DNA from: a virus
IMG/VR virus record: IMGVR_UViG_3300031673_000472
Location: 1-24,273 of that record
Direction: 5' to 3' (one strand)
DNA length: 24,273 bases
Below, piece after piece: positions 317-16,201 of the stretch. The notes under the pieces were generated by a model. The model ran no database searches, was not told the origin of the DNA, and worked only from the letters and a program-made list of their open reading frames with translations. Position 1 is the first letter of the stretch; every line of letters begins with the position of its first letter. A program made the translations under genes and the position numbers.

Positions 317-470
317 AAAGCTGGGCAGGTGAGGTATCCGTTTGCCCCTTTACCCTACCTACATAGTATTTATCTCACCCGATTTGTGCGGAGAGATAAG
401 GCATTGCGGGGTAGCCATCCTCGGTTTGGACAAACTCCCATTCTCCTTTTTTCTTTCCTTACCCAGCTTT
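317..470 (-). ncRNA. Structured RNA element R1 (member 1 of a two-copy family)
   Basis: This element fills almost the whole gap between two leftward genes. The ends form a perfect 9-bp helix, AAAGCTGGG 317-325 with CCCAGCTTT 462-470. Just inside, GGTGAG 328-333 pairs with CTCACC 374-379. Further pairings are GTTTG 340-344 with CAAAC 431-435, TACCC 351-355 with GGGTA 409-413, and a hairpin CCG 379-381/CGG 389-391; an alternative is TTATCTC 370-376 with GAGATAA 393-399. The motif AAGCTGGG-N3-GTGAGGT-N-TC recurs in the element at 5834. Strand is inferred from the flanking genes: it starts 9 nt after the stop at 480 and ends 8 nt before the ATG at 309. It could instead be read rightward. It may be a cis-regulatory leader or a processed RNA; function unknown. 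Confidence 0.55.
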
Positions 471-479
471 CAACTTTGG

Positions 480-1493
480 TTATTTAAGATTAGCTTTAAA
501 CTTCTCTTTCAATTCTTCGTTCTTATCCCCCAACTCTTTGGCAATAGAGTTTTTCCACTTGCCGACCACTTCTGCTTGGGTCTTTCCCTGAATGCCGGTA
601 ATATGAGAGATATAGTTAGACCACGCAATCTCCCAGTTCTCAACAAAACAGCCCTCAAGCACTCTCTTTTCTTTCAAATACTGAAATCTTAAATTCTTTT
701 GAGGGTCAAAAACTACGCTCTCTGGCTTCGCTGGTTCAATACCTTTCTTGATATACTCGGTCATTTTGGCAACATCCTCCTCATACCTTTCATTAAGAGA
801 AAGGTTGTTTAATTTTAAAGGAAATTCAGCCACAGTCAAATCGTCTTTTGAAATATAAAGTATTCTGCCCTCTGGAAGTCCAGTAGCTTTCATCTCGGCA
901 AAACATTGAAGCTGGTGGTGGGGATATGCTTGTGAAAGATAATCCTTTTTAGCCCAAAACACAGTAGAGTTCACGCTTTTGATTTCATACACTAAATCTT
1001 TCAAGCCATCAGGATATTTTTCAGATAAAGTTTCCACCATTCTTCTTGAAATTCTGGCTAAATTAGGCATTAAATCAAAAAGTAGATTGGTTTGAATGTC
1101 ATTTTTAACTTTATCCCAATCCGGTTTTCCGCCGGCAATAAAATCAGGTTTGACTGATACAGCCAAGTGGCTGTCGTCTGCTGGAATTTGATGCCATTTA
1201 TTATCAAATTTTAACAGACCGGAGGACATCAGCACAAAGCCGATTAACCTTTCAAAGAAGTTTCCGGCTTCAAATTTCCTTAAAACTCGTTCCTCGTAAT
1301 CAAAATCTGGAGCAATGGCATTCATCTTGAGATACCTCTCATAATGCCCTTTCCCTAATTCCGAAGCCCAGATATGATCTCTTTGCTTTAAAACTTTATC
1401 TTTTCTGCCTAATGTTAGCTCCTCGTTCCATATTTCCTGAACGCTCCAAGGGTTGTTATTTTTTTGATTTTCCATTGTTTTTAAGTTAATCAT
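480..1493 (-). CDS. RecB/Cas4-like PD-(D/E)XK nuclease
   Basis: 337 residues. The core motifs of RecB-family (Cas4/exonuclease-like) PD-(D/E)XK nucleases are visible in order: an N-terminal W-ASELGKGHYERYL segment (about 42-55), D117 in SVKPDF, E170-I-K172 in LVYEIKS, and the following PHHQLQ helix motif (191-196) typical of RecB-like enzymes. The cluster of cysteines used by Fe-S Cas4 proteins is absent. In phages such proteins process DNA ends during recombination or replication; the neighbouring OB-like protein and AAA+ ATPase fit that. Translation may start at the first ATG (1493) or at the second (Met7, MENQKNNN). The C-terminal third is alpha-helical and charged and not recognised. Confidence 0.75.
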   Translation of the reverse strand: MINLKTMENQKNNNPWSVQEIWNEELTLGRKDKVLKQRDHIWASELGKGHYERYLKMNAIAPDFDYEERVLRKFEAGNFFERLIGFVLMSSGLLKFDNKWHQIPADDSHLAVSVKPDFIAGGKPDWDKVKNDIQTNLLFDLMPNLARISRRMVETLSEKYPDGLKDLVYEIKSVNSTVFWAKKDYLSQAYPHHQLQCFAEMKATGLPEGRILYISKDDLTVAEFPLKLNNLSLNERYEEDVAKMTEYIKKGIEPAKPESVVFDPQKNLRFQYLKEKRVLEGCFVENWEIAWSNYISHITGIQGKTQAEVVGKWKNSIAKELGDKNEELKEKFKANLK

Positions 1494-1718
1494 TTATTTT
1501 TTCCCGACCTTTTTAATTGATTTCCCCAACAGATAATACAAATCATCTAACTTTAAACCCCTTAATGTTTCCACCGCCCATTTTTGCTTTTCTTGGGAGA
1601 ATAATTCTAAAATATCTTTATAAAAAATTCCCGTTTCTTCGCAATCTTTTTCCCTGTTATATCTTGATGTCCAGTTTTTAAACCAAATTATTTTATCTTT
1701 TATTTCTTTTTTGGGCAT
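1494..1718 (-). CDS. Small hypothetical protein, 74 aa
   Basis: Not recognised. A basic, helical protein (MPKKEIKDKIIWFKNW...) rich in Lys and aromatic residues, with no cysteine pair or membrane segment. It abuts the nuclease gene (stop at 1494, nuclease start at 1493) and lies 4 bp from the preceding ORF, so it belongs to the same leftward transcript. The composition would suit a nucleic-acid- or protein-binding accessory factor, but that is only inference. Confidence 0.6.
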   Translation of the reverse strand: MPKKEIKDKIIWFKNWTSRYNREKDCEETGIFYKDILELFSQEKQKWAVETLRGLKLDDLYYLLGKSIKKVGKK

Positions 1719-1722
1719 TATT

Positions 1723-2010
1723 TTAGAAAGGGTTGGGGGGAACGCCGGCTCTTTCTTTGATTACTGATGTTGCCGGATTGATATGCCAACGAATAATCTC
1801 TGTCAAACGATTGACTTCATTACAATTTTGTTCAGCTAAAATCCTTCTTACAAAACTTTCTGACCTCTCATAAGCTCCAATTTTAGCATTAGCTTCGTCT
1901 AACTCATTACATTTGGAATAATAATCACTTTTCCACCGATCCTTATCTTTCATTGCCTCCTTTAGCTCCTCTTTTAACCTTGATTGGTTTGAGTGTTTTT
2001 TCTGGCTCAT
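1723..2010 (-). CDS. Small coiled-coil protein, 95 aa
   Basis: Not recognised. Read from the ATG at 2010 (MSQKKHSNQSRLKEEL), the first 50 residues form a charged coiled coil, followed by a short C-terminal region ending PPNPF. This start gives a 68-bp overlap with the SWIM gene upstream. A later ATG at 1953 (MKDKDRW) would cut the overlap to 11 bp and give 76 residues. I prefer the longer form because the coiled-coil heptads begin before the later ATG. Extending upstream to 2100 would add an unlikely hydrophobic leader that is antisense-like noise from the overlapping frame. Confidence 0.5.
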   Translation of the reverse strand: MSQKKHSNQSRLKEELKEAMKDKDRWKSDYYSKCNELDEANAKIGAYERSESFVRRILAEQNCNEVNRLTEIIRWHINPATSVIKERAGVPPNPF

Positions 2011-2206
2011 TTTTTTGAATGGATTTACGAACTTTAGCTTTATGCCGGCACTCCCGACTAAAAGAGCCGGCAGGACAATTACAATGTAAAGAACCATCAC
2101 TCTCTAATTCAACTTCCCAGCGACACAACACCTCTCCGGTGTCAGGATGTCTCCTACTGCTTTTTACCCAATAAATTTTAATTGGGAATGGTTCTTTAAG
2201 TTTCAT
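1943..2206 (-). CDS. SWIM-type zinc-binding protein, 87 aa
   Basis: 87 residues containing a compact C-x-C-x(n)-C-x-H signature: C42-N-C44-P, then C53-R-H55. This is the SWIM zinc-finger pattern, preceded by a strand-rich segment (WEVELESDGSLH) as in the family. SWIM domains bind DNA or proteins and occur in recombination and transposition factors. The tail (about 56-87) is very basic, consistent with nucleic-acid contact. It follows the OB-like gene with a 1-bp gap, in one leftward operon with DNA-processing genes. Function beyond zinc binding is unproven. Confidence 0.7.
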   Translation of the reverse strand: MKLKEPFPIKIYWVKSSRRHPDTGEVLCRWEVELESDGSLHCNCPAGSFSRECRHKAKVRKSIQKNEPEKTLKPIKVKRGAKGGNER

Positions 2207-2207
2207 T

Positions 2208-2771
2208 TTAAGAAACTTCTTCTTCTGGGAGTGAAGGACTGCCTCCTTCCGGAGAGAGATAAATCACATCCTTGAACTCCTTAAATACTTTCTGGTTGAC
2301 AATTTTTACTTTTGCTTTCTTGCCTATCCATTCAGAGCTTTCATCTGTCCACGCTTTTTCTAATTCAAGCTGGCTGGTTTTGTTGATAGAAATAGATCGT
2401 TCTTCGCCAGAAGGAATTTTTACCTTGAAAGTTAATACCTCTCGGTCAGGGTCTTGAGGGAGAGTATTGTATTTTCCTTCGTCAAGAAAAGTGATAAAAT
2501 CACCGGTTTTTACATCTTTATTGGCGACAACGAAGTCTGAAGCTGGTTTTAATTTCATTGTATTTTCTTGAGGAATGACATTTAATTCCTGATTGATGAG
2601 GTCTGTCTCATCAGGTTCAGGGAATTCAATGTCATCTTCTAAATTAGGTTGATAATTTGAAGGATGTAGGTTTTTGTGCCAGATTTTTCTGCCATCATCA
2701 TAAATTTCCCAATAACCATTTTTAGCTTCTTCAATTACCGGAATATCCTTCCATTGAACTTGGTTGTTCAT
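2208..2771 (-). CDS. Putative OB-fold-like DNA-binding protein, 187 aa
   Basis: Two regions are visible. Residues 1-70 are acidic and probably flexible (YWEIYDDGRKIWHKN, then a run of Glu/Asp/Pro). Residues about 78-175 form a beta-rich domain starting GDFITFLDEG, with a central ISINKTSQLELEKAW segment and a closing WIGKKAKVKIVNQ...VIYLSP. That arrangement (GD-strand, NKTS helix, WxGKKAKV strand) is common in small phage proteins suspected to be OB-fold ssDNA-binding or replication accessory factors; I assign it by resemblance only. The leader has AAAAGGTCGG ending 4 nt before the ATG, one of the few Shine-Dalgarno-like sequences here. Confidence 0.5.
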   Translation of the reverse strand: MNNQVQWKDIPVIEEAKNGYWEIYDDGRKIWHKNLHPSNYQPNLEDDIEFPEPDETDLINQELNVIPQENTMKLKPASDFVVANKDVKTGDFITFLDEGKYNTLPQDPDREVLTFKVKIPSGEERSISINKTSQLELEKAWTDESSEWIGKKAKVKIVNQKVFKEFKDVIYLSPEGGSPSLPEEEVS

Positions 2772-2787
2772 TTTGCCGACCTTTTAA

Positions 2788-3039
2788 TTATTTACAATAC
2801 CAAGCTTTTAATTGTTTTAAGGCGTGAAAAATAGCCCTAATCTCTGTTTTGCTGGGCTTACGGGGAGGATATTTTCCAATCGGCTTACAAGCGTCATAGA
2901 CTAAAACAATCACAGCATCTTCATTCAAGCCATTTTTAGCGAGTGCCTCCATTGCGTTTGAGATTTTAATGATTGCTTCTGCTAAAACTGGTGTTGGCTC
3001 TGGCTTTTCTTCGTTTTTTATTACTTTGACTTTAGCCAT
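2788..3039 (-). CDS. Small hypothetical protein, 83 aa
   Basis: Not recognised. It starts MAKVKVIKNEEKPEPTP: a charged, proline-containing N-terminus, then helices with a GLNEDAVIVLVYDAC core and a basic C-terminus ending KAWYCK. No membrane segment or metal-binding pair. It lies 1 bp from the following gene upstream (3041) and 16 bp from the next downstream, so it is operonic. The mixed alpha/beta core with a Lys/Arg-rich end suggests a small soluble accessory protein. Confidence 0.6.
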   Translation of the reverse strand: MAKVKVIKNEEKPEPTPVLAEAIIKISNAMEALAKNGLNEDAVIVLVYDACKPIGKYPPRKPSKTEIRAIFHALKQLKAWYCK

Positions 3040-3040
3040 T

Positions 3041-3259
3041 TTATTGATTATTTTTAATGCGATACATAAAGACCTTTGTTGGGTTGCCGATTTTACCAGT
3101 AGCGTAATCGTGTTTTACTTCTGATAAAACCTGCCTGATTTTGTTCTCTCCAAATCTTTTAATCAATCCCATATACATTCCAAAAACTTTAGGTTTCTTG
3201 TCGTCTAATTCCTCAATCAGTTCCTGTGCGAGGGCTTGCTGGCGGTTTGTTATTGCCAT
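3041..3259 (-). CDS. Small helical protein, 72 aa
   Basis: Short helical protein (MAITNRQQALAQELIEELDD...) with a middle segment FGMYMGLIKRFGENKIRQVLSEVKHDY and a C-terminal KVFMYRIKN. This layout (paired helices ending in a short F-x-Y-R segment) is often seen in small phage proteins beside replication genes; I do not assign a function. It overlaps the 3' end of the HTH gene upstream by 47 bp, so a shorter form is possible, though the overlapping N-terminus looks genuinely protein-like. Confidence 0.55.
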   Translation of the reverse strand: MAITNRQQALAQELIEELDDKKPKVFGMYMGLIKRFGENKIRQVLSEVKHDYATGKIGNPTKVFMYRIKNNQ

Positions 3260-3404
3260 ATTTGTCTTTGTCTCTATGCCAAGTTCTATAAAAGTTCCTT
3301 TTATCTGTCTCTCCGAATGCCCTAACTATCTCTTTCATCGGCATTCCGGCTTTCTTTAACAAAACTATCGCCTTGTTTTTCTCTGTGTTAGCAGGGTAGC
3401 TCAT
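3213..3404 (-). CDS. Small helix-turn-helix protein, 63 aa
   Basis: First gene after the leftward promoter at 3413-3441. Residues about 11-45 read KAIVLLKKAG-MPMKEIVRAFG-ETDKRNFYRTWHRD, a plausible trihelical HTH: second helix MKEIVRAFG, recognition helix KRNFYRTWH. The rest is a basic, disordered tail. As promoter-proximal gene next to paired GGTGTCAAG repeats, it is a good candidate for an autoregulator that binds those sites; that is inference. The predicted transcription start lies within about 2 nt of the ATG, so the mRNA is probably leaderless. Confidence 0.6.
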   Translation of the reverse strand: MSYPANTEKNKAIVLLKKAGMPMKEIVRAFGETDKRNFYRTWHRDKDKYGNNKPPASPRTGTD

Positions 3405-3412
3405 ATTCTTTC

Positions 3413-3441
3413 ATTTTACAGGTGTCAAGAAAGGGTGTCAA
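3413..3441 (-). promoter_or_regulatory. Leftward sigma-70 promoter P3
   Basis: Read leftward: TTGACA (complement of 3436-3441), 17-bp spacer, TAAAAT (complement of 3413-3418). Both hexamers are at or near consensus with an ideal spacer. The predicted start falls around 3406, against the ATG of the HTH gene at 3404, implying a leaderless transcript. Confidence 0.7.
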
Positions 3442-3442
3442 G
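3421..3442. promoter_or_regulatory. Direct-repeat operator candidate GGTGTCAAG x2
   Basis: GGTGTCAAG occurs at 3421-3429 and again at 3434-3442, 13 bp start to start. The copies cover the -35 box and spacer of promoter P3. The same GGTGTCA core occurs at the promoters near 7.87 and 9.61 kb, so a common repressor or activator is likely. Confidence 0.5.
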
Positions 3443-3454
3443 GGGAAAAAGATA

Positions 3455-3643
3455 TTAACTTTTTATACCAAGACAATCTAAAAGCTCAAACCGATCAAAG
3501 TTTTCTTTCAGTTTGGGGTGTTCTATCAAAATCTTCTCAAGAGCTTGTGTCTGGTTTTTAGCTTTCACCTTTGTCTCAAAATCATCATTTCCTTCACTCC
3601 CTTTGATAAAAAGAATGTAAGTTTTAAGGTTTAAGTTTTCCAT
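3455..3643 (-). CDS. Small acidic protein, 62 aa
   Basis: Not recognised. MENLNLKTYILFIKGSEG followed by FETKVKAKNQTQALEKIL. The shape (strand, strand with KVKAKN, helix with xALEKIL) resembles the tiny beta-alpha DUF-type proteins common in phages, and closely parallels the next gene upstream (3652-3825), which has SYSEIVHYLTQEIEAKDEDEAREKF. They could be diverged paralogues. Last gene of its operon, ending just before promoter P3, with no terminator hairpin between. Confidence 0.55.
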   Translation of the reverse strand: MENLNLKTYILFIKGSEGNDDFETKVKAKNQTQALEKILIEHPKLKENFDRFELLDCLGIKS

Positions 3644-3651
3644 TTTCTTTC

Positions 3652-3825
3652 TTAATCTTTAGCTTCTTCAACCTTTAAATAATAGGTCTCGCTATCATTG
3701 ATAGGCAGGTCATCTTCATTCAGAAGCTCTGTGAACTTTTCTCGGGCTTCATCTTCATCTTTCGCCTCAATCTCTTGGGTTAGATAGTGGACTATTTCGC
3801 TGTAAGACACATTAAATTTTGGCAT
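3652..3825 (-). CDS. Small acidic protein, 57 aa
   Basis: Runs from the ATG at 3825 to the TAA at 3652: MPKFNVSYSEIVHYL, then EIEAKDEDEAREKFTELL and a Tyr/Leu-rich end (ETYYLKVEEAKD). The predicted beta - acidic helix - beta layout mirrors the 62-residue neighbour at 3455, and the AKxxxEA helix start is shared. Function unknown. It is 8 bp from the gene downstream and 3 bp from the gene upstream, in the same leftward operon. Confidence 0.6.
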   Translation of the reverse strand: MPKFNVSYSEIVHYLTQEIEAKDEDEAREKFTELLNEDDLPINDSETYYLKVEEAKD

Positions 3826-3828
3826 AGT

Positions 3829-3981
3829 TTATTCTTCTTCTATGATTTTTACTATTTCAAAACTATCTTCAATATACTCTTTCGGTAATTCATAGTTTTG
3901 AGCAAATAATTCTGCTTCTTCATCGGTTTTACACCCGAGACAAGGTATTTCTATGTTTATATTGACAATTGCTTTTTTCAT
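3829..3981 (-). CDS. Small acidic protein, 50 aa
   Basis: Begins at an ATG (3981) that overlaps the TGA of the AAA+ ATPase gene as ATGA, so it is coupled to it. MKKAIVNINIEIPCLGCKTDEEAELFAQ ends IVKIIEEE. It has one CLGC pair (Cys14, Cys17) and otherwise looks like a strand - helix - strand mini-domain related in style to the two small genes downstream. Too short for a functional call. Confidence 0.55.
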   Translation of the reverse strand: MKKAIVNINIEIPCLGCKTDEEAELFAQNYELPKEYIEDSFEIVKIIEEE

Positions 3982-4655
3982 AACTCTTTCATCATCAAGC
4001 TCTGCCAATGGTTCGGGCTTACCATATACATCTGGTATGCCTTTGGCAAGAGCCGGAGAGATAACCTTTTACTCCCATTTCCGACCTTTTGAATGAATTG
4101 AGCTATATTTGCTCGCTGTTGGAGAGGGATTTTCTCGTAAGGGATTTTACTCCTCTCTAACATCAGCTCGCATAGCTCCTCATTATTTAAACTGATTTCG
4201 TAATATAAAGCTCTGTCTTTAAGGGCATTCATTATTGAACTCTTATGATTAAAATGGTTGAGCAGAAAGATTATTTTACCGGTAAAATTAAACTCTTTGC
4301 TTTCCTTGCTGGTAATCCAGCTAACCCTCCGCCTCCCGTCTGGAGTAGCCCACAAAGCCCCTTTTAACGCTCCTACGCTCTGAATGTCCTTCAAGGTGTC
4401 CTCTACATCATCTAAAACAAGGACTTTAGGGCTTTCCAGCGTATTTACGATCTCCAGCTCCTCTACCAGAGCTTTTGGGGTGATATAGTTAGGCAAGTAT
4501 TTAAAATGTTTGCCTTCAGTCAAGCCCAGTTCATTCAGATACTCCAGCGTGGTTTCAGTTTTGCCATAGCCGGCTGGACTGACTGCCATAAAGGAATGAG
4601 TATTGCCTTTTACCAAAACCAATATAAATCTTTTTAAAATTTCGTGTTGTTTCAT
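3978..4655 (-). CDS. AAA+ ATPase (helicase/loader or recombination type)
   Basis: 225 residues with a complete P-loop ATPase core: Walker A A28-G-Y-G-K32-T33, Walker B KVLVLDD with D82/D83, sensor-1 asparagine N133 in IIFLLNHF, and a C-terminal lid with GSKRLSLRLLPKA (about 194-206) giving a sensor-2-type arginine. Length and the lid motif suit a compact RuvB/DnaC-like phage ATPase. The substrate is probably DNA or a DNA-bound partner: neighbours include zinc ribbons and, in the next operon, an OB-like protein and a nuclease. Replicative helicase loader and recombination ATPase are both possible. Coupled by ATGA overlaps at both ends. Confidence 0.75.
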   Translation of the reverse strand: MKQHEILKRFILVLVKGNTHSFMAVSPAGYGKTETTLEYLNELGLTEGKHFKYLPNYITPKALVEELEIVNTLESPKVLVLDDVEDTLKDIQSVGALKGALWATPDGRRRVSWITSKESKEFNFTGKIIFLLNHFNHKSSIMNALKDRALYYEISLNNEELCELMLERSKIPYEKIPLQQRANIAQFIQKVGNGSKRLSLRLLPKAYQMYMVSPNHWQSLMMKEL

Positions 4656-4855
4656 TTTTGTTGAGCTACTTCTTCTACAATATCCCAGCCAATAACATCA
4701 AGCCAATCGCAATGCTGGCAGTAATACCAAACTCCGGAAGCGTTCTTTTTCTCCTCTCGGAAATCAATCTTGTTTTCTCCTTCACACTTGGGACAAACTA
4801 AATCCTCAAACAATCCGTTTTCCTCTGCTTTTTTTAGTAATTGAGTGTGTTTCAT
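4652..4855 (-). CDS. Zinc-ribbon protein, 67 aa
   Basis: Zinc ribbon with C21-P-K-C24 and C46-Q-H-C49 in a 67-residue protein (MKHTQLLKKAEENG...). I start it at the ATG at 4855 because it overlaps the upstream stop as ATGA, the pattern seen at the other junctions of this operon; the frame extends 8 residues further upstream without better support. It precedes the AAA+ ATPase with a 4-bp overlap and may be its partner or a DNA-contact factor, but this is inference from position. Confidence 0.65.
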   Translation of the reverse strand: MKHTQLLKKAEENGLFEDLVCPKCEGENKIDFREEKKNASGVWYYCQHCDWLDVIGWDIVEEVAQQK

Positions 4856-5043
4856 ATTATTTGTTCTTCTTCGGCACATTTTCTACACCACATTTCTTGT
4901 ATGTCTCCCTCCCACACTTTTTCACTTTCAAATTCTCCCTCTGGCGTGATCTCCCATCTATGAAACATTGTCTGAAGATTTACCTCGGCAGGTTTACCGC
5001 AACCTTGACACTTATAATCGTGTTTTATTTTTTCTTTTATCAT
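4852..5043 (-). CDS. Zinc-ribbon-like protein, 63 aa
   Basis: 63 residues with C12-Q-G-C15 near the N-terminus and C53-R-K-C56 near the C-terminus, the two knuckles of a zinc ribbon, separated by about 37 residues containing FHRWEITPEGEF. The wide spacing suggests a beta-hairpin insertion between knuckles. ATGA overlaps at both ends place it in the same tightly coupled operon. Specific role unknown. Confidence 0.6.
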   Translation of the reverse strand: MIKEKIKHDYKCQGCGKPAEVNLQTMFHRWEITPEGEFESEKVWEGDIQEMWCRKCAEEEQII

Positions 5044-5261
5044 AACTTTTTAAATCCTTTTTCCTCCATTATATTTTCTAACATACAATCCAAAGCAATC
5101 CAGAAACAGCAATCACAATAAGCGTTAGCCATTTTACTGGCAATCCAATTCATATCTCCGTCAGATAAACTGGCAATAAATTTTTCGGGATATTTTTTAG
5201 GATCTATGTCTCCACGACAGACCGAAGTTATTTTAAATTCTGTTGCTAAATCTAATGGCAT
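5040..5261 (-). CDS. Small cysteine-containing protein, 73 aa
   Basis: Started at the ATG at 5261 (MPLDLATEFKITSVCRG). An upstream extension to 5342 would read into the inverted-repeat RNA region and looks non-coding. The C-terminal half carries YCDCCFWIALDC, a run of four cysteines that could hold a metal or a disulfide, followed by an acidic helix. Not recognised. It is the first gene after the large non-coding region 5262-6018, with an AT-rich leader AAAATTAAAATT and no Shine-Dalgarno. Overlaps the next gene as ATGA. Confidence 0.5.
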   Translation of the reverse strand: MPLDLATEFKITSVCRGDIDPKKYPEKFIASLSDGDMNWIASKMANAYCDCCFWIALDCMLENIMEEKGFKKL

Positions 5262-5280
5262 AATTTTAATTTTAATTTTT

Positions 5281-6010
5281 AATATCCTTCCTGCCTGTCT
5301 CCAATTCAGGCAGTCCCAACGCTTAATATCGGAATGTAGCAAGGGATATTAAGCCTCCACGCCACTTGTCCAGCCCTAAAGAATTTTCGGTAGAGCAAAA
5401 ATGGAGACGGACAGAAAAGATACAAAATTGGCAAACAGAAGCGAGCAAAACTACCAAACTCTGCTTCCTTTGCCGGTTGAGCCACTTGCTTTCTAAAGAA
5501 AACAAACGAAGGCGATACAATAAACTAACTATTTTAAGGCGAGGAGCTTTCTCCTCTGTCATCAAGGTCTGTTGTAGTGAGTGAGTTAAAGCCGGTTCAA
5601 ACATCAGACAGGGCTTTAGTTAAGTGATTGAGCAAGGTTTGAGGTAGTTTTAACTATTCCTAACTTGCCAATCCTTATTAAAGTTTAATCTGCCAGCGTC
5701 TTACCTAAACTATAACTATCAACTACGATCAGTCCCTGATAGCCAGAGACAAGAGAAATGCTCCTCATCTATTATATTCTCATTAGTCCGGACTGGTAGC
5801 ATTGTCTCCGGCTATCAAAAACCAATCAGTTTCCGGAAGCTGGGTGCGTGAGGTGTCGCAATTGACTATTCACGCTTTGAACCGGTTGCTGTCCATTAAA
5901 ACTGGCGTGTTTTATTCGTATTTAGTGCGTGGGCTTTTAATCCCCCGCTACGACACGGAATACTTTAAAGCGTTCCGCTTTGTGCTACCAGTTTTACGAC
6001 CCAGCTTCCG
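5281..6010 (-). ncRNA. Large ornate structured RNA region R2, about 730 nt
   Basis: A 757-bp gap between leftward genes with no convincing ORF but many helices. CTGCCTG 5291-5297/CAGGCAG 5307-5313. GCTTAATATC 5321-5330/GATATTAAGC 5345-5354, 10 bp perfect. GAGGAG 5541-5546/CTCCTC 5551-5556. TAAAGCC 5587-5593/GGCTTTA 5612-5618. GCAAG 5632-5636/CTTGC 5664-5668, enclosing TAGTT 5645-5649/AACTA 5652-5656. A long stem: GATAGCC 5738-5744/GGCTATC 5810-5816, continuing GAGACA 5746-5751/TGTCTC 5803-5808, then ATGCT 5758-5762/AGCAT 5798-5802. Last comes the domain at 5834-6010. The one mismatch in the long stem (5745/5809) becomes G-U only on the minus strand, favouring leftward transcription. Size and density recall GOLLD or ROOL RNAs; no homology is claimed. 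Confidence 0.55.
5834..6010 (-). ncRNA. R2 core domain, second copy of the R1-type fold
   Basis: P1 is a perfect 12-bp helix, CGGAAGCTGGGT 5834-5845 with ACCCAGCTTCCG 5999-6010. P2 follows without a gap: GCGTGA 5846-5851/TCACGC 5870-5875. P3 is TAAAACTGG 5897-5905/CCAGTTTTA 5988-5996 and encloses P4 (5927-5933/5942-5948, 6 of 7) and P5 AAAGCG-TTC-CGCTTT 5967-5981. GTGTCG 5853-5858 in the P2 loop is complementary to CGACAC 5951-5956, crossing P3: a predicted pseudoknot. The junction motif AAGCTGGG-N3-GTGAGGT-N-TC matches R1. In R1 the aligned pair is G328-C379, here C5847-G5874: a compensatory change. As in R1, the closing helix begins 8-9 nt after the stop of the upstream gene. Confidence 0.6.
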
Positions 6011-6038
6011 AGAACCGATTACTTAATCGGTATCTCGG
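6008..6038 (-). other. 13-bp hairpin spanning a stop codon
   Basis: CCGAGA 6008-6013 plus ACCGATT 6014-6020, loop ACTT, AATCGGT 6025-6031, one bulged A, TCTCGG 6033-6038. It contains the stop codon of the 6019-6294 gene and shares three bases with the outer end of the R2 closing helix. No T-tract follows on either strand, so it is more likely an mRNA 3'-end or processing structure than a terminator. Confidence 0.45.
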
Positions 6039-7552: not shown

Positions 7553-7845
7553 CCGGCTTTGCTATGCCCATTAGCAATATCCGTTGAAAGCCGGTAAGAC
7601 GGGGATTACTCCAATTTTATTAAAAATCCCCTTCCTACTATTACCTCTGTTTCACGGATTAAGACGCAATAGTAGGAAAGGGATTTTAATATAAGAGTTG
7701 TCCTGTGATAGTTTTTAACTTTTACAGGTTATCTCTGTATAAACTCCCTCTTTTTTGAAGCATTGCCTCTTGATCGTAAAACGCAATGGTAGGGTAAAAA
7801 GAGATTTTTTATTCAGTTTGAAAGGTTCATTTCTTTACCTTCCCT
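7553..7845 (-). promoter_or_regulatory. Structured leader R3 with mutually exclusive helices
   Basis: Leader of the 7516 gene, read leftward from promoter P2. In order: CTCTTTTT 7748-7755/AAAAAGAG 7796-7803 enclosing CATTGC 7761-7766/GCAATG 7783-7788; CCTGT 7702-7706/ACAGG 7724-7728; a 20-position stem 7623-7642/7668-7687 whose single mismatch (7631/7679) is a G-U pair on the minus strand; and CCGGCTTT 7553-7560/AAAGCCGG 7587-7594 enclosing GCTA/TAGC. The distal arm of the long stem can instead pair with GGGGATT 7601-7607 (AATCCCC 7625-7631), so two states exclude each other. On the minus strand the long stem runs into ATTTTT, so it could act as an attenuator. The trigger, if any, is unknown. 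Confidence 0.5.
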
Positions 7846-7851
7846 GCTTTA

Positions 7852-7880
7852 ATTTTATCATACCCTGACACCCTTGTCAA
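7852..7880 (-). promoter_or_regulatory. Leftward sigma-70 promoter P2
   Basis: Read leftward: TTGACA (complement of 7875-7880), 17-bp spacer, TAAAAT (complement of 7852-7857). An inverted repeat TGACA-CCCT-TGTCA (7866-7879) overlaps the -35 box and spacer. Another TGACACC lies upstream at 7901-7907, and a TGTGTATAA word (one mismatch from a DnaA box) at 7890-7898. Drives the 7516-3455 gene block. Confidence 0.7.
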
Positions 7881-10053: not shown

Positions 10054-10083
10054 TTGACAAGCTTGCTTGCTTGGTTGTATTAT
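10054..10083 (+). promoter_or_regulatory. Rightward sigma-70 promoter for R6
   Basis: TTGACA 10054-10059, 18-bp spacer, TATTAT 10078-10083. The predicted start is near 10090. It shares TTGACAAGC and a downstream TTGGTT with the terminase promoter at 10483, hinting at co-regulation. Confidence 0.7.
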
Positions 10084-10089
10084 AGAGAA

Positions 10090-10285
10090 AACTGGAATTT
10101 TCAGTTTTTAAGGAACTTATAACATCCGAGTTAATACCGTATAAGGGTTTCGCCTCCGGATGAGGTTCCTGACATTTGACCAAAGAAAAAAAGTGCGAAA
10201 TCGCTGTCAGGATTTAACACCTGCACGATTTCTTATTTCTTGTGGAAATAACCAAAGAGCCGGCTAATTAAAAAAGCCGGCTTTT
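10090..10285 (+). ncRNA. Structured RNA R6 with own promoter and terminator
   Basis: About 195 nt between promoter 10054-10083 and terminator 10258-10285, with no ORF. Helices: AAAACTG 10088-10094/CAGTTTT 10102-10108; GGAAC 10112-10116/GTTCC 10165-10169 enclosing CATCCG 10123-10128/CGGATG 10157-10162; TGACA 10170-10174/TGTCA 10205-10209; TTATTTC 10233-10239/GAAATAA 10245-10251. Two loop pairings cross these stems: TTATA 10117-10121 with TATAA 10140-10144, and GAAATCG 10197-10203 with CGATTTC 10226-10232. Both are H-type pseudoknots. It does not match tmRNA, 6S or RNase P landmarks I know. Its position, beside the packaging genes and a possible origin, leaves regulator and packaging roles open. 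Confidence 0.65.
10258..10285. terminator. Intrinsic terminator, probably bidirectional
   Basis: AGCCGGCT 10258-10265, 9-nt loop AATTAAAAA, AGCCGGCT 10275-10282, then TTT. Read rightward it ends R6. Read leftward the same stem, with TTTTTT inside its loop, can end the transcript from the promoter at 10409-10437. Confidence 0.65.
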
Positions 10286-10402
10286 GGATTTTGGGTTTAT
10301 TATGTGCTTCCAATTTTTCAGAATTAAGTATGTCATACCAATTGGGGGGATGAGGGACCCTACTTTTGGAAACTTTCATTTCCGCAGCTTCCCCTCATCC
10401 TC
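10265..10402 (-). ncRNA. Candidate leftward RNA R8 converging on R6
   Basis: A consensus-perfect promoter (10409-10437) predicts a start near 10402. The first transcribed bases form GGATGAGGG/CCCTCATCC (10348-10356 with 10392-10400), a perfect 9-bp helix enclosing GGAAA 10368-10372/TTTCC 10379-10383. About 60 nt further on it meets the terminator shared with R6. There is no leftward ORF until 9548, so it is either a short RNA of about 130 nt or the attenuated leader of the leftward operon. Confidence 0.45.
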
Positions 10403-14287: not shown

Positions 14288-16201
14288 ATGGCAGTAGAAA
14301 GAATAAAAGAATTTACAATAGACTTAGGAGATTTAATCAATGCACGACTTGATAGTTTTGTTTTGTCCAGACAGAGAATTCAAGCAAAACAAGAAGCTGA
14401 ATTTCAAAAGATTGTTTCCGGGCAAGGAATGAGTTATGCCGACCAATTAAAATACAAAAAGGATATTTTGTCAAGGGAAAAAGATAAAACATTTGTTGAT
14501 ATAAGTTATGTAGATTCTCTTGAAAGTGATATTTCTAATCTTCGTAAATTAGCTCGGTATGAAACGATAAGGAAAGAATACCTTGATAATTATACTGGTT
14601 ACAAAACAAGTGAAATTACAATAGATACTCTTGTTAATTCAATAGAGAGTCAATTAGCAATTGTTTCCGACCCAGACCTTCGTAAAGAATTACAGGATAA
14701 ACTTTCGGAGGCGAAAATAGAGAAAGTTAATTCGCAAAGGCAGATTCTTGAAAATAGGGTTATTCTTGCTAAGGGGGATAAAGGCGTTGAGCTTTTGGAT
14801 AAAGTTATTTCAGAAATTTTAATTGAATACAATAAAGCAATAACATCTGGGAATAAGGAATATTCAACTTCTTTAGATATTTATTTGCAGTCGCTTCGTT
14901 CCCAAAAACAGAAAGTTGTTGCTGAAACCAAACGGCACGATTTTGATTTGCAAGCTGTTTCTGGAAATGTTGATGCGGTTGGGAAATTAGATATGTTAAA
15001 TAGTGCAATGCAGTCAGCCGATACTACGAGTCAATTTGTGATTGATGGAAAAACATATAGTTCAGAGTTGGAATACTGGACATTCCAGCGGGATTCTTAT
15101 TTGGCCGGAGCCGGTAGCGGAGAATTCCAGAATTTCTTTAACGATTTTAATACTGGAGTAAAAGAGCGTGTTGATAAATTATCTTCAATGAATAAATTTG
15201 GTTCTGTTCCGGTATCTACAATTGCAGCGACTGACCAAGGGTATAAAGACTTGCTGTCAAGAAATGAGTTTGCATTATATCAAGGGAAAATAGAATCTCA
15301 AAGAATTTTTGCCTTAACTTATGCGGTGGATAAATCTGCCAAGGGGATTGTAGAGGAATCTGACTTGCACGGAGAATTTACGAGAGGTCAGACATCATTA
15401 CTTGCTTTACAAAATCAGTTTGGAATTGACCTTTCTACTTTTATAACTGATTTGAAATATAGGGAATTAGACCAGCCGACAAGGTTTAATGCTTTAATGA
15501 CAGCCGCTGAGTTTAAAGCTTCTCAAAAGTTAGGCATTTCAGCAGACGATCTTGACCCACTTGGTAATCCTGAGCATAAAAGGTTGATTGATGAAGAATT
15601 TACGAGAATAGCAGAAACTCCTTTACCCGAGCAGGGAAGTGTTCTTCAAAACATAGAGGAGGAAATTATTGTTCCACAAAAGATAGGGGAAGTTAAAGCT
15701 CCGGAGATACCAACCCCAACCCCAACCCCAACTCCGACTGACTATACGGGTTCAAGCATTGTTGATTATTTGAAATCTACTGGGCAAGATGGTAGCTTTT
15801 CAACACGAGCAAATCTTGCTCAACAATATGGAATATCTAATTATACAGGAACAGCAGGTCAGAATACTCAATTATTAAATATATTAAGAAGCGGACAGAA
15901 ACCTCCAACTCCAGCTCCTACTCCAGCTCCTACTCCAGCACCTACACCTACGCCTACGCCTACGCCTACGCCTACGCCTACGCCTACGCCTACGCCTACA
16001 CCTACGCCTACACCTACGCCTACGCCAGCACCTGCACCTTCTGGTTACACAGGAGTATCTGTTGTGGATTACTTAAAATCGGTAGGAAAGCCCAGCGATT
16101 TTTCTTCCAGAACACAATTTGCAACACAAAAAGGAATTACTAATTACACGGGAACAACAATGCAAAATACTCAATTACTTAAACTTTTAAGAGGATTTTA
16201 A
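14288..16201 (+). CDS. Large virion-associated protein with two VDYLKS modules
   Basis: 637 residues. Residues 1-460 are almost entirely helical/coiled-coil with many charged repeats. A short TPTPTPT stretch (about 474-482) leads to module 1 (about 484-535: [13 protein letters not shown]...[16 protein letters not shown]). A Pro-Thr linker of about 45 residues follows, then module 2 (585-637: [13 protein letters not shown]...[16 protein letters not shown]). The modules are near-identical in pattern and resemble a repeat found at the ends of some amidases and cell-wall-binding proteins. I infer a role in peptidoglycan or surface contact, but structural spacing is possible. Encoded between portal and ejection-type genes, so probably virion-bound. 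Confidence 0.55.
15902..16039 (+). repeat. Pro-Thr linker DNA repeat, including 14 CCTACR hexamers
   Basis: Codes for the PT/PA linker between the two modules. Within it, 14 contiguous copies of a CCTACG/CCTACA hexamer run from 15941 to 16024, flanked by related CCTACTCCAGCT units. Such a tract can change length by slippage without leaving frame, so linker length is likely variable between isolates. Confidence 0.85.

Follow-up and report, generated by a model that had tools for sequence, protein, structure and literature searches.

Two intercistronic stretches of a virus genome, ca. 5.5 kb apart and termed here E1 and E2, were described in an initial annotation as two copies of one structured-RNA fold. 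This raises the question of whether they belong to one RNA family and what such an RNA would do. The window analysed here corresponds to a whole virus record of 24,273 bases (IMGVR_UViG_3300031673_000472), with genes on the minus strand left of ca. 9.5 kb and on the plus strand right of ca. 10.5 kb, those for the terminase, the portal and the major head protein being located in the right part. A member of the Patescibacteria is the probable host, since the only relative of the terminase in the genome collection (70% identity) occurs on a contig, L011, of a Ca. Paceibacterota MAG; none of the INPHARED phage records has a related terminase. Little work exists on phages of Patescibacteria (CPR), and the open library searched contained no paper combining "Patescibacteria", "phage" and "structured RNA". 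The features considered below are located in Table 1.

Table 1. Location of the structured features within the window
Feature	Position	Strand	Remarks
E1 frame element	317..470	-	P1 arms 462-470/317-325; second stem CUCACC 328-333/GGUGAG 374-379
Whole structured non-coding region	5278..6020	-	743 nt; fold z-scores in text; no Pfam and no Rfam match
Possible E2 outer helix	6013-6020/5824-5831	-	
E2 frame	5835..6009	-	P1 arms 5999-6009/5835-5845; second stem 5870-5875/5846-5851
E2 core, three-way junction	5897..5996	-	P2 5987-5996/5897-5906; Px 5955-5978; Py 5916-5953
Long hairpin II, ca. 25 bp	5728..5826	-	5802-5826/5728-5752; read from the sequence
HP1 hairpin	5627..5681	-	Loop motif GGCRAG..UUAAAACURCC..UCAAA 5638-5669; kissing arm A 5643-5651; kept in L010 and L011
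HP2 hairpin	5430..5474	-	Loop UUUGGUAGUUUUG; kissing arm B 5447-5455
Last domain, predicted 20-bp closing helix	5282..5428	-	Minimum-energy fold only; no homologue

A frame common to E1 and E2

Within the window, 318-338 and 5837-5857 are the only sites of the motif AAGCTGGG-N3-GTGAGGT-N-TC, with an exact match at both and none elsewhere even when three mismatches are allowed (0.02 expected), and CCCAGCTT is found at the far end of both elements, about 140-160 nt beyond the motif. Identical 8-bp arms alone are not rare, with 0.7 place pairs per shuffled window. When 9 or more of the 13 bases next to an arm also had to match, such pairs were obtained in 7 of 4000 dinucleotide-shuffled windows; with the further requirement of at least 5 G/C per arm, as in E1 and E2, none of the 4000 contained one. 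The resemblance in closing helix (P1) and adjoining motif, noted in the initial annotation, is beyond chance. The second stem directly inside P1 was also recovered, as GGUGAG/CUCACC in E1 and GCGUGA/UCACGC in E2, together with its one compensatory change; an equally long stem arose in 6% (E1) and 15% (E2) of shuffled interiors, giving a joint chance of ca. 1%. Because the coding strand is the minus strand at both sites, the RNA of the frame reads 5'-AAGCUGGG...ACCUCAC-N3-CCCAGCUU. The elements had been annotated as starting shortly after a stop codon, which holds once their strand is corrected to minus, each RNA starting 9 nt past its stop codon (the stop codons being at 480 and 6019). A two-sequence MAFFT alignment of E1 and E2 placed P1 wrongly and was left out of the results.

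What E1 and E2 have in common is the outer frame only, that is P1, the ACCUCAC motif and the short second stem. E1 (154 nt) folds only modestly (z -2.0) and does not contain the conserved core present in E2 (see below); no homologue of E1 was found, leaving its interior without comparative support. The nuclease relatives L003-L006 have ordinary sequence behind the nuclease and no E1, and a match of E1 to positions 5471-5502 of L005 (E = 1e-4) was rejected as an A-rich chance match within a coding gene. Since, in addition, the core occurs in L011 without the frame, the description of E1 and E2 as two copies of one fold is not borne out. E1 is better termed a second instance of the frame than a second copy of the RNA, and we propose that in E1 the outer frame alone is used again, in diverged form, between other genes of the same strand, the two frames possibly having a common origin.

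Searches with the frame extended over several collections. In IMG/VR, the exact 17-nt frame motif had no match and its 14-nt form matched 73 stretches, including L050 and L063, which have a perfect or near-perfect 9-bp P1 complement and were discarded as chance occurrences inside protein genes. In 380 Patescibacteria genomes, matches with 2 mismatches were at chance level and about as numerous as with the reversed control. Distant blastn comparisons with phage records gave chance matches only, and a third copy of the frame was found in none of the searches.

The E2 core and a pair of kissing hairpins

E2 (175 nt) folds well (z -6.0) and forms the 5' domain of the structured non-coding region. 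The extent first given to the element was therefore too short, E2 continuing into this region down to 5278. The minus strand of 5270-6020 folds with -258.6 kcal/mol (z -9.3), the plus strand of 5278-6020 being less stable (-227.4, z -4.9), and the AT skew of the neighbouring coding DNA nearly vanishes within the region. A protein-coding reading was rejected, the ORFs within the region having no match to a Pfam family. In Rfam, the whole window had no match up to E = 1, including to known riboswitch, ribozyme and intron families, and 5270-6030 matched only chance eukaryotic families, all below gathering scores, a result that fits an undescribed family, as initially supposed. No strong promoter-like or terminator-like site was found at the edges of the region. 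A long hairpin similar to hairpin II occurs in the related virus L010 from 5398 (minus strand); in the minimum-energy fold of the window, other pairs are formed at this site.

A covariance model built from E2 alone matched L011 at 5523-5647 on the minus strand (17.6 bits, E = 0.012 over 173 kb). This match covers only the inner domain of E2, the P1 frame being absent in L011. Both sequences have P2, with AACUGGURGCACAAA on its 5' side and AUAAAACACGCCAGUU on its 3' side, as well as CUAAAU in a bulge, and the conserved unpaired motifs of the core are RGCACAAA, CUAAAU and AUAAAACAC. Px and Py, located between these, differ in sequence between the window and L011, yet their pairing is kept. In the model-guided alignment of these two sequences, which is biased towards structure but has sequence anchors on either side that are independent of structure, 97.6% of the cells were paired and seven pairs were changed on both sides, as compared to 0 or 1 when the partners were slid by 1-3 columns. 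These comparisons support the view that the inner domain of E2 is probably an undescribed structured RNA with a diverged, covarying homologue. That part of the initial annotation is supported for E2, for which the covariance-model search recovered covarying pairs in L011, and not for E1, which yielded no homologue. The pseudoknot predicted in E2 between 5951-5956 and 5853-5858 is probably wrong, since 5951-5956 lie in Px and Py, both of which covary with L011.

In L011, a promoter-like site and two hairpins precede the core within a leader, and the core ends ca. 13 nt before an ATG. Two patterns of the core 3' motif were fitted in IMG/VR only by the window and L011, and a weak genome match to the core (G313, 19 bits) was rejected as many of its pairs are broken. 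An 8-codon reading frame (AUG GAC AGC AAC CGG UUC AAA GCG UGA; 5870-5896, minus strand) located between core and second stem of E2 may be a coincidence.

Weak blastn matches led to a motif common to the region behind E2 and to non-coding stretches of L010 and L011, of which the L011 stretch as a whole folds no better than shuffles (z -1.75). This motif, GGCRAG-N5..10-UUAAAACURCC-N0..2-UCAAA in all three, occupies the loop of HP1, and its AAAACURCC is exactly complementary over 9 bp to GGYAGUUUU in a second loop downstream. Arm B lies 196 nt downstream of arm A in the window, 199 in L010 and 249 in L011. The stems below both loops vary in sequence among the phages while their pairing is kept, and the kissing pair itself displays a compensatory A-U to G-C change in L011, the single such change across the three sequences compared. 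A 9-nt complement occurred in 0, 13 and 13 of 2000 shuffled downstream regions of the window, L010 and L011, respectively. This conserved long-range pairing is absent from the initial annotation.

In all three phages the kissing region is found just 5' of the ATPase operon, the end of HP2 being separated from the probable start codon of the next gene by ca. 9 nt in L011, ca. 20 nt in L010 and 172 nt in the window (ORFs read by eye). Just upstream of the kissing region, L010 (5409-6020, minus strand) and L011 (4705-5355, minus strand) have a gene of 203-216 aa without Pfam match; E2 occupies its place in the window, and the E2 core is located upstream of it in L011. L010 further contains a second AAAACUACC-UAUCAAA within the loop of its long hairpin II, which is a possible competitor for the same kissing partner. 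Among the IMG/VR matches listed for the kissing motif, the loop motif and its partner occur together only in the window, L010 and L011. Besides L011, a kissing pattern searched in 384 Patescibacteria genomes and a model searched in 247 gave partnerless matches only and were rejected; the pattern matches lie inside protein genes, as do the other look-alikes that were read closely.

Other structured elements are found elsewhere in the window. On the plus strand, 10054-10300 comprises a promoter-like TTGACA-18-TATTAT (10054-10083), ca. 200 structured bases and a terminator-like hairpin before the late genes. It looks like an independent ncRNA gene, has no match in Rfam and is kept in L007 (2946-3166) with paired changes, for instance from UUAUUUC/GGAAAUAA to UUACUUC/GGAAGUAA. 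On the minus strand, a promoter-like TTGACA-17-TAAAAT (7880-7852) at 7560-7880 is followed by two long hairpins. One of the hairpins is kept in L010 (6800-6925), with an nhmmer match also to the L011 leader; together they are reminiscent of an early leader that works like put or nut. Finally, the gene at 14288-16201 (plus strand) encodes two related repeats of ca. 31 residues with a long Thr-Pro repeat in between (15797-16192), and its product is possibly a structural or surface protein.

Possible roles in the early operon

We tentatively favour, with slightly less than even confidence, the reading of 5278-6020 as a cis-acting leader or intercistronic RNA of the early (minus-strand) phage operon, because the region lies in an operon without a strong promoter-like or terminator-like site at its edges and because, in the relatives, its pieces end closely before start codons. 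Such an RNA would be transcribed with the operon and would be built in modules, the outer frame (P1 and the ACCUCAC stem) surrounding the three-way-junction core and being followed by the long hairpin and the two kissing hairpins. It would regulate in cis the downstream genes, an operon that includes one for an AAA-like ATPase. Formation or loss of the kissing contact would alter the access of ribosomes, the processing of the RNA or the elongation of the transcript, and effects of the same kinds might come from a partner bound to the unpaired conserved bases of the core. Counted against this reading are the distance of 172 nt between the kissing hairpin and the next gene in the window, against 9-20 nt in the relatives, the z of -1.75 of the L011 region, the small number of sequences (two for the core, three for the kissing pair) and the lack of an E1 homologue.

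The main rival is a large, ornate RNA that would be released from the operon transcript and act in trans, as a particle or scaffold as GOLLD and ROOL may be. The size of the region, its elaborate fold and its kissing loops are those of such RNAs, known from phages in the case of GOLLD and ROOL (PMC12286853), but neither a promoter nor a terminator of its own, a tRNA nearby or an Rfam match was found, and in L011 genes separate the pieces, so that we regard this role as unlikely. Quite unlikely is the broader proposal that Patescibacteria phages possess large ornate RNAs of a new class, with a modular core and kissing loops, which would act as an RNA-only particle or scaffold and not as a leader, E1 being a stand-alone module.

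Two other explanations concern the elements themselves. If the likeness of E1 and E2 were due to chance or to a DNA-level repeat such as transposon ends or operator sites, only the E2 core and the kissing loops would be left as RNA. The 0.7 pairs of identical arms per shuffled window agree with this, as do the lack of a third copy in any search and the L011 core without frame. Arms with the adjoining motif, by contrast, appeared in only 7 of 4000 shuffles and G/C-rich ones in none, the motif is one-sided, unlike terminal inverted repeats, direct repeats are absent from the flanks, and both elements start 9 nt past a stop codon; we regard this explanation as quite unlikely. Still less likely is a role of the elements as antitermination or anti-pausing signals on RNA polymerase, in the manner of the put RNA of phage HK022, which works as RNA alone (PMC9378689). 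They are located in the early operon, and in L011 two hairpins and a promoter-like site precede the core in its leader. However, they are far larger than put (about 70 nt), the closest strong promoter-like site on the strand of E2 is ca. 1.9 kb away in the window, and the tandem hairpins at 7560-7850 suit such a role better.

If the favoured cis-acting reading is true, at least one undescribed RNA family with covarying pairs accompanies the early genes of Patescibacteria phages, in genomes for which 740 bases of non-coding sequence are expensive. Both the core and the kissing pair are testable in vitro without culture of the host.

Comparison with known systems

GOLLD and ROOL are large, elaborately folded non-coding phage RNAs with kissing loops (PMC12286853), and the window region resembles them in length (743 nt, z -9.3), phage origin and kissing loops. 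It has, however, no match to the Rfam covariance models of GOLLD, ROOL or OLE, is embedded in an operon, and does not have its core and kissing motif in common with them. GOLLD and ROOL are often found near phage tRNA genes, whereas no tRNA gene was found in the window, a record that may be incomplete. The put RNA of phage HK022 is about 70 nt long and consists of two stem-loops just behind early promoters (PMC9378689). The likeness here is that of a cis-acting structured RNA in a phage early operon, cis action being what we propose for the window region, which has ten times the size of put and lies at a distance from promoter-like sites. As in a MITE, inverted ends are present, yet no direct repeat was seen beside E1 or E2 and only one side has the conserved motif. 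Finally, while the region has no match to an Rfam family of riboswitches or structured leaders and in the window does not directly precede a gene, it has in common with them a junction and unpaired conserved bases inside covarying helices, located just before an ORF in L011.
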